DNA from: Quisquiliibacterium transsilvanicum
Lineage (GTDB): Bacteria; Pseudomonadota; Gammaproteobacteria; Burkholderiales; Burkholderiaceae_E
Assembly: GCF_014202215.1 (NCBI RefSeq)
Contig: NZ_JACHGB010000004.1
Span: 285,255 to 349,254, forward strand
Length of the DNA: 64,000 nucleotides
Direction: 5' to 3'
This document shows positions 56,462 through 64,000 of this stretch, piece by piece. How positions within the stretch are numbered: position 1 is the stretch's first letter; every line of letters begins with the position of its first letter. The notes under the pieces were generated by a model. The model was not told the origin of the DNA, did no database searches, and was given only the letters and a program-made list of their open reading frames with translations. The position numbers and the translations under genes were made by a program.

Positions 56462-56524
56462 ACGCAGCGCGCCGGGCCCCCGCCGGGCGCCGCGCCGGAT
56501 CGAATCTTCATGGAGCACTCACGC

Positions 56525-57130
56525 ATGTCCATTCGCTGGCTCAATCGCATCCTCCTGGCTGCCCTGTTCGCGGTCGGGCTGTCCGGCTGCGGCTACAACG
56601 ACATCCAGTCCTCCGACGAGGGCACCAAGTCCGCCTGGTCCGAGGTCCTCAACCAGTACCAGCGCCGCGCCGACCTGATCCCGAACCTGGTCAACACGGT
56701 GAAGGGCTTCGCCGAGCAGGAGAAGGAGGTGTTCACGCGGGTCACCGAGGCGCGCTCGCGGGTCGGGCAGATCCAGGTCAACCCCGGCGACCCCGAATCC
56801 CTGAAGAAGTTCGAGCAGGCGCAGCAGGAGGTCGGCAGCGCACTCTCCAGGCTGCTGGTGGTGGCGGAGAACTACCCCCAGCTCAAGTCGGACGCGAACT
56901 TCCGCGACCTCCAGGCGCAGCTCGAGGGCACCGAGAACCGCATCGCGGTGGCCCGCAAGCGCTACATCGAGTCGGTGCAGGGCTACAACGTGCTGGTCCG
57001 CCAGTTCCCCGTGAACCTCACGGCGATGGTCTTCGGCTACGGCCCCAAGCCGCAGTTCTCGGTCGAGAACGAACGCGAGATCTCCACCGCGCCCAAGGTC
57101 GACTTCGGCCGGCCGGCGGAGTCAAAGTAA
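56525..57130 (+). CDS. lemA: LemA family lipoprotein
   Basis: 201 residues. MSIRWLNRILLAALFAVGLSGCGYN is a lipoprotein signal with lipobox LSGC, so the protein would be lipid-anchored. LNQYQRRADLIPNLVNTVKGFAEQEKEVFTRVTEARSR is the LemA core, largely helical and coiled coil-like, ending with the conserved FPVNLTAMVFGY. I prefer the ATG at 56525 because GGAG is 9 bases upstream; 56510 would add five residues. LemA genes are commonly next to a TPM-domain gene; here that gene is 6 kb away at 63168. Confidence 0.9.
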   Translation: MSIRWLNRILLAALFAVGLSGCGYNDIQSSDEGTKSAWSEVLNQYQRRADLIPNLVNTVKGFAEQEKEVFTRVTEARSRVGQIQVNPGDPESLKKFEQAQQEVGSALSRLLVVAENYPQLKSDANFRDLQAQLEGTENRIAVARKRYIESVQGYNVLVRQFPVNLTAMVFGYGPKPQFSVENEREISTAPKVDFGRPAESK

Positions 57131-57147
57131 AGCGCCACGGATGAACC

Positions 57148-57169
57148 GCGGGCGCGCTGGCGCGCCCGC
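57148..57169 (+). terminator. Perfect hairpin after lemA
   Basis: GCGGGCGCGC (57148-57157), TG, GCGCGCCCGC (57160-57169): a perfect 10-bp palindrome pair 18 bases after the lemA stop. It implies that the next gene starts at 57189 or 57207, not at the ATG at 57141. Confidence 0.55.
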
Positions 57170-57188: not shown

Positions 57189-58070
57189 ATGCCCGAGAAC
57201 TCCGGCATGGCAAGCGCTGCCGCGCCCGCCGTGGGCTTCCTCCACCCCGGCGAGATGGGCGCCGCCCTCGCGGCGCTCACGCGAGCGAACGGGCACCGGG
57301 CGCTCTGGGCCTCGGCGGGGCGCAGCGCGGGGACCGGGGTCCGGGCGCGCGCCGCCGGCCTGGCCGACTGCGGCACCCTGCCGGCGCTCTGCGCGCAGTC
57401 CGGGATCCTGGTCTCCATCTGCCCGCCGCACGCCGCGCTCGAGCTCGCGCGCGCGGTCGCCGCCGAGGGCTATCGCGGCATCTACGTCGATGCGAATGCG
57501 ATCTCTCCCCGGCATGCGCGGGAGATCGCCGGCATCGTCGCTGCCGCAGGAGCCGAGTTCGTCGACGCAGCCGTCGTCGGTCCCCCGCCGCTGCGCGGGA
57601 GGGATACGCGCCTCTACCTGTCCGGGCCATCCGCCGCTGCGGTGGCCGCATGCTTCCCGGCGGACCGGCTGATCCTCGAACTGGTCGGCGCGGAGCCCGG
57701 CAGGGCCTCGGCGATCAAGTCCTTCCATTCGTCGATGCACAAGGGGTCGCTTGCGCTGCTGTTCGCCACGCTGGCGGCGGCGGAAGGCGCCGGCGTGCGC
57801 GCTGAGCTTGAGCGGCTCTTCGCGAGCCGGCCCGCGACCGCCGCCTACCTCGACGGCCTCGATGGGAGCGTGCGCCGCGCCTCGAAGTCCTGGCGCTTTG
57901 CCGGCGAGATGGACGAGGTGGCGGACGCCCTGGGCGAGTTCGGGCTCCCGCGGGGCTTCCACGCCGCTGCGGCGGAGATCTACCGCCGGCTCGCCGGCCT
58001 GCGCGGCGCGGCTTCCGAAGTCGAGCTCGCGGCGGTGCTCGATTCGCTGCTCGGTGAGCGGGGCCGCTGA
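57189..58070 (+). CDS. NAD(P)-binding 6PGDH-like protein with DUF1932 domain
   Basis: 293 residues from ATG 57189 (another in-frame ATG is at 57207). AVGFLHPGEMGAALA is the cofactor loop of the DUF1932 branch of 3-hydroxyisobutyrate/6-phosphogluconate dehydrogenase relatives; IYVDANAISP and the helical C-terminal DUF1932 domain (KSFHSSMHKGSLALL, with a plausible catalytic Lys) follow. The substrate is unknown. Its stop is one base before the next ATG (TGAGATG), making it the first gene of a tightly packed run of four. Confidence 0.82.
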   Translation: MPENSGMASAAAPAVGFLHPGEMGAALAALTRANGHRALWASAGRSAGTGVRARAAGLADCGTLPALCAQSGILVSICPPHAALELARAVAAEGYRGIYVDANAISPRHAREIAGIVAAAGAEFVDAAVVGPPPLRGRDTRLYLSGPSAAAVAACFPADRLILELVGAEPGRASAIKSFHSSMHKGSLALLFATLAAAEGAGVRAELERLFASRPATAAYLDGLDGSVRRASKSWRFAGEMDEVADALGEFGLPRGFHAAAAEIYRRLAGLRGAASEVELAAVLDSLLGERGR

Positions 58071-58071
58071 G

Positions 58072-59982
58072 ATGACGCAGGTCGAATCGCCCGTCGACGT
58101 GATACAGACAGTGCTGACGCTGGAGCGCCGGCTGGGGGCGCTGCGGGGCATGGCCTGGGGCCTCTGGCAGCCCGCGCTTCCTGTCCTTGTATCGGTGGCG
58201 GCGGACCTTGCCGGTTCTTTCGAGGCGCTGGACCGCGCGATGCTCGCGCTGGTCGTCACGCCGCTGGACGTGGCCGCCGACGCGGGCCTGGCCGCGGCCG
58301 GGCCCAGGGCGCTGCTGGCGCGGGTGCATCACTGGCAGGCTGCGGTGCAGCGGGAGGCGGACGTGCCGGTGTTCGGCCCCTGCCATGTCGCCGAGCTCGC
58401 GTCCGGCGGATCGCCGGGGCGCTCGCGGATGCTGCTGGCGCTGCCCTGCGCGGACCAGCGCGCCACGGCGGGCGCCCTCGACTGGGTGATCGGCGCGGTC
58501 AACACGCTGCTGGCGCCTGGCGGCTCGGCGGCATCTGTGCAGGGGTCTTTGCAGGCATCTCTGTCGCGGCTCAGGACGGCGCTGAAGCCTGCGGCGGTGC
58601 GCGGGGTCAACTCGATTCACTTCCTCGCCGCAGCGCACCGCCTCGGGATGCAGGTGGGCGAACTCGCGCCCGGCATCCACGCGATCGGCGTGGGGCGCCG
58701 CAGCCGTCGGCTGAACAGCTCGGTCACCGACGAAACCCGGCTGATCGCTGCCGGGATCGCGCAGGACAAGGCGAACACCGCGAAGGTGCTGGCCCTGCAC
58801 GGCCTGCCGGCGCCCGCTCACCGGCTGGTCGTTTCCGAGGAGGATGCCGTCGCGGTGGCGGCGTCGCTTGGCTATCCGGTGGTCGTCAAGCCGGCGGACC
58901 TGGACGGCGGGCGCGGCGTGTTCGCCGGGCTGCAAAGCGAGGCGGTGGTGCGCAGCGCCTGGCGAGAGGCGTCCCGGATGTCGCGTCGGATCCTGGTCGA
59001 GCGACACGTCGAGGGCGATGATTTCCGCTTCACGGTGGCCGGTGGCGAGGTGGTGAAGATCATGCAGCGCCGCGCGGGCGGGGTGACCGGCGACGGACAG
59101 GCCGACGTGGCGGCGCTGCTGGCGCGGGTGCAGGCCACCGAGCCGCACCAGCGGGCGCTGCGGCGCGAGGGCAAGTTGCGGCTGTCGCTCGACCGGGATG
59201 CGCTGGAGCTGCTGGACGAGCAGGGGCTGGACGCGGCCAGCGTGCCAGCGCCCGGGCGCTTCGTGCGCCTGAGGAGGAAGGCCAACATCTCCGCCGGGGG
59301 CGAGCACTGGGTGGTCGCGCCCGCTGCCGTCCATCCCGACAACATCGAGCTGGCTCTGTGTGCGGCGCGGGCGATCGGCCTCGACATCGCCGGCGTCGAC
59401 CTCATCATCGACGATGTGCGCCGGCCCTGGCACGAGACCTTTGCAGTGATCTGCGAGGTCAACGCGAAGCCGCAGATTGGGCTGCGTGACACCCCCGAGG
59501 TCTATGCCGGCATCCTGCAGCGGCTGCTGCCCGAGGGCGGCACGATCCCGCTCCACCTGATGGTGCTGGCCGAATCGTCGGACGGCGCGTCCGACGCCTT
59601 GCGCACCCTCTCCGGGCGGCTCGGCTGCAATGCGGTCTCCTGCGCGCAAGGGGTCTGGGTCGACGAGCGGCGCAGCGTTTGGCGGCCGGCCGACGCTTTT
59701 GCGGCGGCGCAGGCGATGCTGCTCGATGCGCGGGTGGAAGCGGCGGTCGTCGCGATGACCATGGACGAGATCGTCCGCTGCGGACTGCCCGCGCGCCGCT
59801 TCGTCAGCGCAACGCTTGCGCGCGAGGCTGTGGACCGGCTGCCCGCGCCGCGCCGCGCGATCCTGGCCGCGATGCTGCGCGGCCAGTGCGACACGATCCG
59901 CGTGTCCGGACCGCCGCGGGCGGGCACGGAACGCGCCGGCGGCAGCGACAGAGAGGCGGGCGTCGCGCCCGTGACCGGATGA
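58072..59982 (+). CDS. Cyanophycin-synthetase-like ATP-grasp ligase with a degenerate Mur-ligase domain
   Basis: 636 residues, against about 870-900 for cyanophycin synthetase CphA. Residues 1-180 resemble the CphA N-terminal domain only loosely; 180-235 (GVNSIHFLAAA, AIGVGRRSRRLNSSVTDET) and the ATP-grasp domain (232-475: QDKANTAKVL, GYPVVVKPADLDGGRGV, KANISAGGEH, GLDIAGVDLI, CEVNAKPQIG) follow CphA closely. In the region where CphA has the Mur-ligase P-loop GTNGKTT, this protein has AESSDGASD (500-508); VEAAVVAMTMDEIVRCGL still matches the next CphA block (VxxAVLExxRGGILRxGL), then the domain stops. The second ATP site is therefore lost. It should join amino acids to a carboxylate using only the ATP-grasp site; the substrates are unknown. 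Confidence 0.82.
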   Translation: MTQVESPVDVIQTVLTLERRLGALRGMAWGLWQPALPVLVSVAADLAGSFEALDRAMLALVVTPLDVAADAGLAAAGPRALLARVHHWQAAVQREADVPVFGPCHVAELASGGSPGRSRMLLALPCADQRATAGALDWVIGAVNTLLAPGGSAASVQGSLQASLSRLRTALKPAAVRGVNSIHFLAAAHRLGMQVGELAPGIHAIGVGRRSRRLNSSVTDETRLIAAGIAQDKANTAKVLALHGLPAPAHRLVVSEEDAVAVAASLGYPVVVKPADLDGGRGVFAGLQSEAVVRSAWREASRMSRRILVERHVEGDDFRFTVAGGEVVKIMQRRAGGVTGDGQADVAALLARVQATEPHQRALRREGKLRLSLDRDALELLDEQGLDAASVPAPGRFVRLRRKANISAGGEHWVVAPAAVHPDNIELALCAARAIGLDIAGVDLIIDDVRRPWHETFAVICEVNAKPQIGLRDTPEVYAGILQRLLPEGGTIPLHLMVLAESSDGASDALRTLSGRLGCNAVSCAQGVWVDERRSVWRPADAFAAAQAMLLDARVEAAVVAMTMDEIVRCGLPARRFVSATLAREAVDRLPAPRRAILAAMLRGQCDTIRVSGPPRAGTERAGGSDREAGVAPVTG

Positions 59983-61658
59983 CGAGCGCATCGCCAGGAA
60001 GCAGGGTCACCTCCATCGGCATCGATGGGCCCAACATGCCGCTGCTGAAGGCATGGATCTCCGACGGCAGGCTGCCGAACCTCGCCGCCATCGCCAGGGA
60101 CGGGGCGACCGGCCATTACACCCATCACAAGGCCTTCAGGAACGAGCGCTGCTGGGAGACATTCCTCGACGGCCGGCCTTCGCAGGGCTGCGGCGCGGTG
60201 TTCGACCCCGAGCACTACGCCTTCCGCAACGAGTCGCTGCAGGACGAGCGGCCGCAGGCGCCTTTCCATGCGCTGGGCGAGGGCTTCGAGGTCTGCGCCT
60301 TCGACCTGCCGGCACCGCTGTCGCCGCAGGTCAGGGGCCTGCAGGTGGCCGGCTGGGGCAGCGAGCTGAACAGCTCGGTGCCGATGTCGATGCCGCCCGG
60401 GCTGCTCGGCGAGCTGACCGCAAAGCACGGCGGCGACCCGAAGTTCGAGCGTTCGATGGCGGTGCTCGACCAGGCCTCGGGCCGCCAGGAGCGCTCGTTC
60501 CGGCTGCCCAGTCTCTACGACGCCGAGGGACTGTGCCGGTTCAGGGGCGACCTGCTGCTGGCGATCGAGCGGCGCACCGCGATCTGCGAGGACCTGATGT
60601 CGCGCGGCGAGTGGAACCTGTTCCTCGCGCTCTACACCGAGAGCCACAGCGCCAATCACGTGCTGTGGCATCTCGGCGAGCCCTTCCCGGTGGCGCCCGA
60701 GGGCGCCCCGCACGGCCATGCGCTGCTCGAGGTCTGCCAGGCGATCGACCGGGGCATCGGCCGGATCCGGCGCCGCGCGCCCGCTGACGGGAGCCTCGTC
60801 GTCTGGACGATCGACCACACGCTGGCGAACACGATGGACGTGCCCAGCCTGGTGCTGCTCCCGGAGCTGCTGTACCGCTGGAGTCATCCTGGCGCGCGCG
60901 CGCTCGCCCCCGCCGAGGCCGACGGGCCGGTGCCGCCGATGCGCACCGACTACCGACGGCACTGGAAGCACGAGATCTGGAGCCTGGTCACCGCGACCGG
61001 GGCGGCCGAGCTGGAGTCGCCCGCGAGCCAGGAGGCGCGCGGCGATCCGTTGAGCTGGCATCCCGCGAACTGGTACCGGCCGCTGTGGCGCGGCATGAAG
61101 GCCTTCGCGCTGCCCAGCGTGTCCGACGGCCACGTGCGCCTGAACGTGCGCGGCCGCGAGGCGGGCGGCATCGTCGAGCCCGCGGACTTCGATCGCGTGC
61201 TGGACGAGCTCGCCGCGCTGCTGCGCTCGGCCACCGATCCGCGCACCGGCAGGCCCCTGGCCGCGCGCGTTCTGCGCACCCGGCAGGCGCCCGCCGACGA
61301 GCCCCGCATGCCGCCCGACCTGATCGTGTGCTGGGACGACGCGCGGCCCGCCGACACGCTCGACTGCCTCGGCTTCGGGCGCGTGGGACCCGTGCCCTTC
61401 TTCCGCTCGGGCGGGCACGTGGCGCACGGCACGCCGGTCGAGAACCTGCTGCTGGCCTGCGGCCCCGGCATCGAGGCGGGCGGCACGCTTCGCGCCGGCG
61501 TGCTCGAGGACCTGCCGGCCACGCTGCGGGCGCTGGCAGGGGCGCCGCGCGGGCCGGGAATGACCGGCCGCAGTCTGTTCGAGCCCGGCGAACCGTCTGG
61601 CGCAGGCGCGGCAACGGGCGCAGGCGCAGGCGCGGCAGCGGTCGGCCGGCCGGCGTGA
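59979..61658 (+). CDS. Alkaline-phosphatase-superfamily protein
   Basis: 559 residues; ATG overlaps the previous stop as ATGA. The fold is suggested by SIGIDG (Asp16), RLPNLAAIARDG, LYTESHSANHVLWHL (Glu221, His223, His227), TIDHTL (Asp279, His280) and SGGHVAHGTP near the end, i.e. most metal ligands of phosphodiesterase/phosphoglycerol-transferase-type members. The usual nucleophilic Thr/Ser region (Thr-x-Pro-x-Trp-like) reads RNERCWETFLDG, where I cannot identify a convincing nucleophile except perhaps Thr61. No signal peptide, so cytoplasmic. The C-terminus ends in a Gly/Ala/Thr-rich tail. Second member of the cassette. Confidence 0.75.
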   Translation: MTSASPGSRVTSIGIDGPNMPLLKAWISDGRLPNLAAIARDGATGHYTHHKAFRNERCWETFLDGRPSQGCGAVFDPEHYAFRNESLQDERPQAPFHALGEGFEVCAFDLPAPLSPQVRGLQVAGWGSELNSSVPMSMPPGLLGELTAKHGGDPKFERSMAVLDQASGRQERSFRLPSLYDAEGLCRFRGDLLLAIERRTAICEDLMSRGEWNLFLALYTESHSANHVLWHLGEPFPVAPEGAPHGHALLEVCQAIDRGIGRIRRRAPADGSLVVWTIDHTLANTMDVPSLVLLPELLYRWSHPGARALAPAEADGPVPPMRTDYRRHWKHEIWSLVTATGAAELESPASQEARGDPLSWHPANWYRPLWRGMKAFALPSVSDGHVRLNVRGREAGGIVEPADFDRVLDELAALLRSATDPRTGRPLAARVLRTRQAPADEPRMPPDLIVCWDDARPADTLDCLGFGRVGPVPFFRSGGHVAHGTPVENLLLACGPGIEAGGTLRAGVLEDLPATLRALAGAPRGPGMTGRSLFEPGEPSGAGAATGAGAGAAAVGRPA

Positions 61659-61678
61659 CCGGGCCGGCCAGGCATCCC

Positions 61679-63091
61679 ATGCGCGTCACGCTGCACGACT
61701 ACGCGACCGACCCCTCGCTGCCGCAGAAGGACGGGGTCAACCTCGCCCACGAGAACATCGCCGCGCTGCTGAAGGAGAGCGGGGATTCCGGCCTGGACGT
61801 CAGCTTCCACGACTTCACGCGCCTGCTCGTCGACGAAGACTACGCAAGGCGGGTGCTGGCCGAGGTCGACTGCGTGGTCAGCAACGTCGGGCCGCATGCG
61901 CACTACTACTTCTGGCTCAGGCAGCGGCTCCGGCTGGACTTCCGCATCCTGCGCGACGTCCGGACGGCCATCTGGAGCAGCTACCTTCTGCAGGAACACC
62001 TGTGCCGGGCATGGCTGCGCCCGGACGACGTGCTGCTGGTGGCCAGCCACTACACGCGCGGCGTGTACGAGCGGATCTTCCCGCACCTGGCGGGTCTGCC
62101 GACGGTTCGCTGCTATCCGCTGTCCGTGGGCTTCCCCGCCGCCGAGGGTTTCCGCGCGCGCGACGCGCGCGCGGGCGCCCGGCCGAGGGTCATCGGTTAC
62201 ATCGGCCGGCTCTCCGAAGACAAGAATTTCCCGGATCTCGTCGAACTGCTGATCCGCCTGAACCGGGCGGACCCCGGCGGCTATCGGTTGCGCGCCTGTG
62301 GCGACGTCCATTCGCCGAGCTGCGACCCCGCGCTCGTGCGGCAGCGCATCGCCGCCGAACTGGGCGACGGCGACTGGTTCGAGTACCTGCCCGCGCGGCC
62401 CAACAGCGGCGTGTGGGAGCTCTACGACCGCTTCGACGTGCTGGTCTTTCCGAGCACCTCCAACCTGGAGACCCTGGGCCGGGTGCTTGTCGAGGCCAGC
62501 CACGCCGGCGTGCCCATCGTCTGCGGCGAGCATGCGGCCGCGCCGGAACTGGTGCCGGCGGGCGCCCTGTGCCGGGTGCACTACGCGCAACGCCGCGACT
62601 ACAGCGCGCACTTCGACCATTCGCTCGGGCGCGTGAGCCTCGATGACATGCAGCGGGTGCTGGCCGGCGCAATTCTCGAGCGCTCGACCTGCCACCTCGA
62701 GTACCTGACCCACCCGGACAAGTTCATGCGCATCCTGCGCGCCTGCGCCGCGGGCGGGCGCCCGGAGCCGGAGCCGCTCGAACTCGCGCCCGCGCAGCGG
62801 GCCTTCATCGGCGCCCTCGCGGTGGACCTGCCGGCGCCGCTCGAGGCCAGGGCGGCGGATGCGCTGCTCGCCCGGCTGGCGCGCTGGTTCGTGTCGCTGC
62901 AGCGGCAGGGAACGCCGGAGCGCGAGGGGCTGATCGCGCGCCTTTCCGAGATGTCGCAACATCCGGAGCGCACCTCGCGCTTCGTCCGCAAGACCCTCGG
63001 GACCAGTGCGGACTTCACCGACGTCGGCGGCATCGACATCGAGCTGTGCCACGTGGCGGGCTTCTACCCCAGCTTCCGCCTGCAGGCCTGA
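61679..63091 (+). CDS. Glycosyltransferase, GT4-like
   Basis: 470 residues with two Rossmann halves. The C-terminal half has GYIGRLSEDKNFPDLVELL (donor-site loop, from residue 173) and the E-x7-E motif ETLGRVLVE (264-272) of retaining GT4 enzymes, then AGVPIVCGEHAAAPEL. The last 110 residues are an extra helical region of no known type. No signal peptide; it would use a nucleotide-sugar in the cytoplasm. It starts 20 bases after the phosphatase-like gene and closes the cassette; a TPM gene follows. Confidence 0.85.
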   Translation: MRVTLHDYATDPSLPQKDGVNLAHENIAALLKESGDSGLDVSFHDFTRLLVDEDYARRVLAEVDCVVSNVGPHAHYYFWLRQRLRLDFRILRDVRTAIWSSYLLQEHLCRAWLRPDDVLLVASHYTRGVYERIFPHLAGLPTVRCYPLSVGFPAAEGFRARDARAGARPRVIGYIGRLSEDKNFPDLVELLIRLNRADPGGYRLRACGDVHSPSCDPALVRQRIAAELGDGDWFEYLPARPNSGVWELYDRFDVLVFPSTSNLETLGRVLVEASHAGVPIVCGEHAAAPELVPAGALCRVHYAQRRDYSAHFDHSLGRVSLDDMQRVLAGAILERSTCHLEYLTHPDKFMRILRACAAGGRPEPEPLELAPAQRAFIGALAVDLPAPLEARAADALLARLARWFVSLQRQGTPEREGLIARLSEMSQHPERTSRFVRKTLGTSADFTDVGGIDIELCHVAGFYPSFRLQA

Positions 63092-63167: not shown

Positions 63168-64000
63168 ATGCCTGCATTGACCAGATCGGGAACCGTCGCC
63201 TTCGCGCATGTGCGGGCGCGGGTCCCTGCGGCGAACCTCGCTGCCGCCCAGGCGGGCCGGCTCGGCGGGCTTGCGCGCCGCTGGATCCTGTCCCTGCTGC
63301 CGCTGCTCGCGCTGCTGCTTCTGCATGCCACTGCCGGGGCTCAGCCGCTGCAGGCGGTCCCGCAGCTGAGCGCCAGGGTCACCGACCTCACCGGCACGCT
63401 CGATGAAGGCCAGCGCCGGGACCTCGAGGCCCGGCTGGCCGCGATCGAACAGCGCAAGGGCGCCCAGGTGGTGGTGCTGATGGTGCGGAGCACCCAGCCC
63501 GAGACCATCGAGGACTACAGCATCCGCGTCGCCGAGGCCTGGAAGATCGGCCGCGGCCGCGTCGACGGCAAGCAGGTCGACGACGGGGTGATCCTGCTGG
63601 TCGCCAAGGACGACCGCAAGGTGCGCATCGAGGTCGGCTACGGCCTCGAGGGTGCGATCCCCGACGCTTACGCGCGGCGCATCATCGCCGAAGCGATCAC
63701 GCCGCGCTTCGCCCAGGGCGACTTCAACGGCGGACTGCAGGCAGCCGTCCAGTCGCTGGGCCGGCTGATCGACGGCGAGGATCTCCCTGCGCCTGCCCGG
63801 GGCGCGCCCCAGTCTGCGGGCGAGGGGGACTGGCTCTCCGGCCTGCTGGTGGTGTTCGTCGGCGGCATGATCGCCACCGCGGTGCTGGGTCGGCTGCTCG
63901 GCTCCATGGCCGGCGGCGCCGGAGCCGGGGTCTTCGCAGCGCTCAAGGGGGCCCCTCTACTGATGGCCGGCGGCGTGGGCTTCGTGGTCTTTCTGCTGTT
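63168..64000 (+). CDS. TPM-domain (YgcG-like) membrane protein (3' end outside window)
   Basis: The frame is open to the window end; 277 codons are visible. A basic N-terminus with a hydrophobic signal (RWILSLLPLLALLLLHATAGAQ, about 38-58) is followed by the TPM domain (about 65-205: RVTDLTGTLDEGQRRDLEARL, QVVVLMV, IGRGRVDGKQVDDGVILLVAKDDRKVRIEVGYGLEGAIPDA). A Pro/Gly linker and membrane segments at the end (WLSGLLVVFVGGMIATAVL and a second glycine-rich one) complete the usual YgcG plan. TPM proteins are usually encoded beside lemA, from which this copy is separated by the four-gene cassette. No clear ribosome site precedes the ATG. Confidence 0.85.
   Translation, partial: MPALTRSGTVAFAHVRARVPAANLAAAQAGRLGGLARRWILSLLPLLALLLLHATAGAQPLQAVPQLSARVTDLTGTLDEGQRRDLEARLAAIEQRKGAQVVVLMVRSTQPETIEDYSIRVAEAWKIGRGRVDGKQVDDGVILLVAKDDRKVRIEVGYGLEGAIPDAYARRIIAEAITPRFAQGDFNGGLQAAVQSLGRLIDGEDLPAPARGAPQSAGEGDWLSGLLVVFVGGMIATAVLGRLLGSMAGGAGAGVFAALKGAPLLMAGGVGFVVFLL

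Follow-up and report, generated by a model that had tools for sequence, protein, structure and literature searches.

A four-gene cassette between lemA and a TPM-domain gene as a candidate undescribed module for amide-decorated glycoconjugates

A cassette between lemA and TPM

In the 64,000-nucleotide stretch of DNA that was analysed as a whole (the window), part of the 4.26-Mb, 15-contig genome of Quisquiliibacterium transsilvanicum (G000), four genes lie on the plus strand between lemA and a gene for a TPM-domain protein. The left flank, lemA (56525..57130, +; reading frame open from an ATG at 56510), encodes a LemA-family protein (PF04011, 195 bits), and the TPM gene on the right (63168..63998, +; PF04536, 139.5 bits) runs past the window end. 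Between them stand, in order, a DUF1932 or beta-hydroxyacid-dehydrogenase-like NAD(P) enzyme (57189..58070, +; PF09130, 37.2 bits), whose gene start is uncertain (57141, 57189 or 57207); a CphA-type ATP-grasp ligase of 636 amino acids (aa) that has no Mur-ligase half (58072..59982, +); a 559-aa protein with the fold of the alkaline phosphatase (AP) superfamily (59979..61658, +); and a 470-aa GT4 glycosyltransferase (61679..63091, +; PF00534, 54.6 bits). The successive spacings are 1 base, a 4-base overlap and 20 bases, and gene calls and family matches agree that the closely spaced cassette named in the original prediction is real. That prediction also had a hairpin cutting the cassette off from lemA. 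The 9-bp GC stem-loop at this place (57148..57169, +) is no more stable than shuffled sequences (z −0.38) and has no T-run, and we dropped the idea of a terminator.

The two flanking genes are neighbours in every relative in which lemA was found. A lemA match (E up to 1e-30) is present in 44 of the 60 relatives searched, and a TPM match lies beside it in all 44, as the original prediction had assumed and set as a check. The 46 pairs have −83 to 305 bp between the matched stretches; the count omits the window genome, weak second lemA copies (G051 C7:75394, G027 C5, G041 C2, G016 C29) and second or partial TPM matches (G058 C30, G008 C159, G004 C124:3599). Set against the 44 relatives with lemA, only the window genome has 6 kb in this position. 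When the lemA–TPM stretches of six relatives were compared with the window, they aligned to its flanks inside lemA and TPM and gave short, chance-like matches elsewhere; neither a precise insertion junction nor a target repeat emerged from this comparison. The cassette does not have a foreign base composition, its GC content being 0.71–0.75 against 0.66–0.75 around it.

The ligase and the AP-fold protein are both scarce among related genomes. A trio-type ligase (that is, one like those of the nine recurrent loci described below) was absent from the 60 relatives among the best 20 or fewer candidates per genome: the best matches score no more than 178 bits (35% identity), compared with 360–526 bits for the nine trio ligases, and many of them lie in tandem pairs resembling a cphA pair. 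An AP match (E up to 1e-40) was found in 3 of the 399 genomes of the order, with the window genome counted and the best three candidates considered per genome, and in 4 of the 61 genomes of the relatives set. A near relative of the window AP protein, 89% identical, is encoded on an 84.6-kb contig. G174, of the same order as the window genome, is apparently the Burkholderiaceae record of the trio locus L016 (G174/G424 and L016 being apparently one record). Taken together, this rarity and the 6-kb gap found only here make the cassette look like a lineage-restricted arrival, although a close AP relative exists.

Protein families and active-site residues

The ligase scores well below the NCBIfam cut-offs (272 bits against 877 for NF010623, and 233.9 against 850), has a RimK match of 53.2 bits and gives no Pfam match to Mur_ligase at E up to 1. 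Its family profile nevertheless aligns to CphA1 structures, positions 157–587 to 7lg5 and positions 80–583 to 7wac. Residues K233, K273, E310, E462 and N464 are invariant in all 12 aligned ligases (alignment A3), and we take them to be the ATP-grasp site, made up of the Lys residues and an E-x-N Mg site. The features of an ATP-grasp amide ligase (ATP-grasp domain, conserved Lys, E-x-N) are thus present, and amide-forming activity is predicted. According to the extracts of PMC9262961, mutation of CphA1 His267 was the authors' way of inactivating the G domain; the corresponding position holds Gly279 in the window ligase, and the remaining 11 of the 12 aligned ligases have Gln there. The same extracts give the full N-domain form Cx19HxxEH for 83% of CphA1 proteins, and the HxxEH core was found in the first 250 residues of none of the 12 ligases. 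Identity as a cyanophycin synthetase consequently failed four tests: the Mur half, the NCBIfam cut-off, His267 and HxxEH. As far as the extracts of PMC9262961 and PMC10206079 describe CphA1 and CphA2, their ATP-grasp core is homologous to that of the cassette ligase, which differs from them in having no Mur half and no HxxEH, in the replacement of His267 and in its AP and glycosyltransferase gene neighbours. The window genome has a separate cphA/cphA′ pair (L096; 1247 and 1056 bits) that lies above the NF010623 cut-off. From its sequence, we read the cassette ligase as a putative single-site enzyme with a changed substrate pocket and not as a cyanophycin synthetase, so that the CphA kinship seen in the original prediction stands but does not extend to that activity.

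The window AP protein, which matches no Pfam family itself, has an AP-superfamily fold of the phosphodiesterase type (PF01663 group), as judged from a structure comparison by VIA re-ranking of a Foldseek search; PF01663 matches 12 of the 18 members of alignment A1. An alignment with 3szy and with the 3t02 variant of that structure located the nucleophile column. AP phosphodiesterases and phosphonoacetate hydrolase (3szy, 2gsn) have a Thr nucleophile there, whereas all 11 trio-type members (the window, nine further loci and the cut locus L023) have Asn, which is Asn55 in the window protein; the column is Thr in five of the six members from the GT2 variant described below. The adjacent Glu56 is nearly invariant (the 200 sequences behind the AP residue counts are partly redundant), and four residues ahead of His227 stands a His, where the canonical superfamily residue is Asp. 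Thus, the fold proposed for phosphoryl transfer is present but the catalytic Thr is not, and phosphoryl transfer should not be assumed.

For the GT4 protein, E264 and E272 of the E-x7-E motif, presumably with the roles usual for this motif in GT4 enzymes, are invariant in the 10 aligned proteins (alignment A4). Its best NCBIfam match, to MshA, is weak (26.4 bits against a cut-off of 462.5), and the best PDB matches are 3c48/3c4q, which we take to be MshA structures. The solved chains nearest to the DUF1932 protein are 1i36 and 4ezb; its solved relatives are uncharacterised 6-phosphogluconate-dehydrogenase-like proteins, followed by imine reductases and hydroxyacid dehydrogenases. A Lys, whose functional role we presume, is conserved in all four DUF1932 proteins compared.

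Recurrence of the set and its gene neighbours

A scan with the AP alignment gave 77 loci in named genomes. In nine of them (L016, L017, L018, L019, L020, L021, L022, L024 and L027), ligase, AP and GT4 genes are adjacent in the same order and on the same strand, in records whose titles name Burkholderiales, Sphingomonadales, Synechococcus and Cyanobium; the three genes therefore do co-occur elsewhere, as the original prediction had required. Leaving the DUF1932 gene out of the co-occurring set, as it did, was not borne out: in three of the nine loci (L016, L021 and L022) the ligase has this gene upstream of it, just as it does in the window, and for this reason we count the gene as belonging to the set. 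A variant with ligase, GT2 and AP occupies 6 of the 77 loci (L028–L031, L070 and L088), the GT2 of L030 having been scanned against Pfam and the remaining GT2s assigned by BLAST cluster; in L029 the ligase is split into two reading-frame pieces. L023, cut at one end, retains AP, the glycosyltransferase and a 29-bit ligase fragment, and L025 has AP and GT4 in a different order and no ligase. The other 60 AP loci, many of which have short flanks, show neither partner or a weak match only (L061, glycosyltransferase, 24 bits; L064, ligase, 32 bits).

Across the window and the nine trio loci, the pairwise identity matrices of the three proteins correlate strongly (ligase/AP, r = 0.87; ligase/GT, 0.84; AP/GT, 0.95), and for each pair none of 5,000 permutations gave a correlation as high. 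This matched divergence indicates that ligase, AP and GT4 travel together. Among the matches listed, 26 of 120 AP relatives agree exactly with a GT relative (118 of 120 used) in the longest-sequence size of the source assembly, compared with an expectation of about 0.7 (mean of 1,000 jittered controls); two of the 26 shared records, Inhella and Cyanobium, were already known as loci.

Several observations concern the scan itself. Codon-based recall led us to discard open reading frames of 863, 661 and 960 aa that had appeared as neighbours in L022 and L024 and that looked like wrong-frame calls in GC-rich DNA; some of the neighbour genes scanned against Pfam came from the first, rough gene calls. 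L029, L030 and L031 share an identical gene-cluster run around ligase–GT2–AP in records titled as Rhizobium, Kuenenia and Sphingomonadales MAGs, of which the Kuenenia title could reflect misbinning. The relative G015 (L098, L099) has three AP-fold copies, two of them in tandem; around these and one copy of G008 (16–19 kb each), no ligase, GT4 or DUF1932 match was found.

The strongest functional clue lies outside the window, in Inhella gelatinilytica (L021). There, 13 gene calls on the same strand (+), with gaps of −4 to 97 bp, run in the order RTX protein, PF12000 glycosyltransferase, DUF1932, ligase, AP, GT4, a 223-aa protein, ABC, ABC, HlyD, TolC, cyclophilin and an unidentified gene, and would probably form one transcript. 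The RTX protein matches PF00353 and has 22 motif hits. The 223-aa protein (L021:11452-12123) has no Pfam match; relatives of it occur in two other genomes (L104, L111), ahead of both ABC genes. Inhella is the only one of the 10 loci (window plus nine) with an RTX gene beside the trio, which counts against RTX as a general rule. The window, the other eight trio loci and L023 have at most one RTX-type motif per open reading frame, and the ABC–HlyD–TolC genes that adjoin the cassette in Inhella are absent beside the window cassette and at the other eight trio loci.

The PF12000 glycosyltransferase is itself RTX-linked. Of 29 regions around this gene (3 to 20 kb each; one match, on a 537-base stretch of G001, was left out), 16 contain an open reading frame with at least three RTX-type motifs, or 14 of 27 when the previously known L021 and L095 are removed; among AP loci spanning 11 kb or more (L021 left out), the figure is 1 of 65. 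The 13 regions that have none include some short contigs. A PF12000 glycosyltransferase was found in 8 of 11 trio genomes (one of which, G431, is counted through the cut locus L023 only) versus 14 of 60 relatives, which differ in taxonomy from the trio genomes (Fisher P = 0.0025); smaller trio sets gave 7 of 10 (P = 0.006) and 6 of 9 (P = 0.014). The match is missing in G425, G428 and G430 (3 of 11), and is present in one of five further genomes with the GT2 variant.

The window genome has related loci of its own. At C4:165-185 kb, on the same contig as the window (L104), stand RTX, PF12000 glycosyltransferase, a relative of the 223-aa protein, ABC, ABC, HlyD and TolC genes, the PF12000 gene being on the opposite strand and the four cassette genes not being there. 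In a second locus, at C7:106-125 kb (L095:887-18767), a ligase paralog lies next to the gene for a 2611-aa RTX protein. An AMP-binding enzyme and a PF12000 glycosyltransferase come next, with TolC–HlyD–ABC secretion genes on the opposite strand. G003, of the same genus (L111), has an RTX fragment, a PF12000 glycosyltransferase, a 223-aa relative, ABC, ABC, HlyD and TolC.

A candidate pathway and its alternatives

Searches of literature titles and abstract openings returned no description of the four-gene set and no characterised locus that matches it one to one, in agreement with the original prediction; Iyer et al. (2009), a survey of amidoligases, lay outside this search and may contain an earlier description. 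The nearest parallel in logic is capsule amidation in Campylobacter jejuni, for which the extracts of PMC11800379 describe a glycosyltransferase, an ATP-grasp amidoligase and a phosphatase combined in Cj1438 and Cj1435; like the cassette, it brings together sugar transfer, ATP-grasp amide ligation and a phosphatase-type step. The families differ. According to the same extracts, Cj1438 combines a TupA-like ATP-grasp ligase and a GT2 in one fusion protein, and the phosphatase Cj1435 belongs to the HAD group. In the cassette the ligase is of the CphA type, the GT4 is a protein of its own and the third partner has an AP fold; the window proteins match families other than those of C. jejuni. We treat the resemblance as an analogy that need not imply homology; it indicates that such activities can work together, with other protein families. 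For secreted RTX proteins, the extracts of PMC3034196 report the surface proteins SwmA and oscillin as glycosylated. The Inhella run resembles that case in pairing RTX with glycosyltransferases and type I secretion genes, and no amide ligase or AP-fold partner is mentioned in those extracts.

We propose that the four genes form an undescribed mobile module whose product is an amide-decorated glycoconjugate, destined in some cases at least for a secreted RTX protein; we give this reading a probability of about 0.45. Its core, amide ligation plus sugar transfer, is somewhat better than an even bet, and the RTX protein as a general target is doubtful. In the mechanism that we infer, for every chemical step as for the acceptor and the export, the module would act in the cytoplasm and would move horizontally as a four-gene unit. 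The DUF1932 enzyme would supply the amino or hydroxy acid by reducing a precursor; next, a carboxylate would be activated with ATP by the CphA-type ligase, which would form one amide bond; and the GT4 would place a sugar on the ligase product or its acceptor. The AP-fold protein may bind a phosphorylated or sugar-nucleotide-derived intermediate in its rebuilt site without the Thr nucleophile. In Inhella, and perhaps in trans in the window genome, the product might be placed on, or exported with, an RTX surface protein through type I secretion. A bolder form, in which a mobile DUF1932–ligase–AP–GT module places a peptide- or amino-acid-bearing glycan on giant RTX proteins before type I secretion and the AP protein with its swapped nucleophile performs new, non-phosphatase chemistry, seems unlikely. 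The amino-acid-decorated glycan, glycopeptide or phospho-glycoconjugate of the original prediction is still a fair guess as to product, although the phosphoryl transfer that it invoked cannot be taken for granted, given the absence of the Thr in 11 of 11 members.

Some of the data pull against this proposal: 60 of the 77 AP loci have no ligase or GT4 partner or a weak match only, the RTX and secretion loci of the window genome lie elsewhere, and in the cyanobacterial loci scanned the AP gene stands in polysaccharide clusters. Copies of the set, for which we found no name, turn up in proteobacterial as well as cyanobacterial records and diverge in parallel. If the proposal is right, the set would be a compact pathway candidate uniting amide ligation and sugar transfer. 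It includes an AP-fold group that has lost the catalytic residue and kept many invariant ones, and would offer a lead on how bacteria may decorate secreted RTX proteins.

The alternative that survives best, as a minority view worth keeping in sight, is a small-molecule pathway in which a GT4 glycoside built on a sugar or polyol phosphate, a phosphatase-fold step at that phosphate and ATP-grasp addition of an amino acid would yield a soluble metabolite, osmolyte or cofactor. Its model is mycothiol synthesis, whose step order follows a GT4, phosphatase-type and ATP-grasp logic. Four genes are a suitable size, the best NCBIfam and PDB matches of the GT4 (26.4 bits; 3c48/3c4q) point towards MshA, and the GT2 variant of L030 has P450, MFS, SDR and TonB receptor genes nearby, a setting that a small molecule fits better. 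The MshA match, however, is far under its cut-off and spans the general GT4 core, the four genes include no deacetylase or acetyltransferase, the Thr nucleophile is missing in every trio-type AP protein, and the Inhella run connects the set with a secreted protein.

Decoration of a capsule or exopolysaccharide, with an amino acid or peptide placed on a lipid-linked or free glycan and no dedicated protein target, is improbable enough that we would not favour it, although C. jejuni employs the same three kinds of activity on its capsule (PMC11800379, in the extracts cited above). Wzy, flippase, Poly_export and glycosyltransferase genes accompany the cyanobacterial AP relatives among the genes scanned in L036, L061, L065 and L069, and in L017 two sulfotransferase-type genes lie 3′ of the glycosyltransferase. 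Those four cyanobacterial loci, however, have no ligase match, and the subset of trio neighbours scanned includes no flippase, polymerase or polysaccharide-export gene.

A short cyanophycin-like polymer, capped or tethered by the other gene products, would suit a CphA-derived ligase, and directly upstream of the trio ligase of L018 lies a CphA-like protein that has a Mur domain, with a ligase match at the equivalent place in L019. We consider it a long shot, given the cassette ligase itself (no Mur half, HxxEH in 0 of 12, His267 replaced by Gly here and by Gln in 11 of 12) and the cphA/cphA′ pair above the cut-off elsewhere in the window genome. A chance cluster of unrelated accessory genes between lemA and TPM would fit the rarity of the AP match (3 of 399 genomes), but is hardly credible when the trio recurs in the same order at nine further loci, with matched divergence and 26 of 120 shared assemblies.

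Apart from the proposed module, CphA-type ligases occur in other arrangements. The window genome encodes, at C3 ~399-402 kb (L094:8063-11305), a 1081-aa fusion of an AMP-binding enzyme to a CphA-type ATP-grasp ligase, with a second AMP-binding protein adjoining it, and at C5 (L093:7457-11211) a CphA-like ligase next to a 601-aa protein with a DUF2939 domain. In L016:1728-14451, four CphA-like ligases, including that of the trio, lie within 13 kb together with a methyltransferase-like gene.
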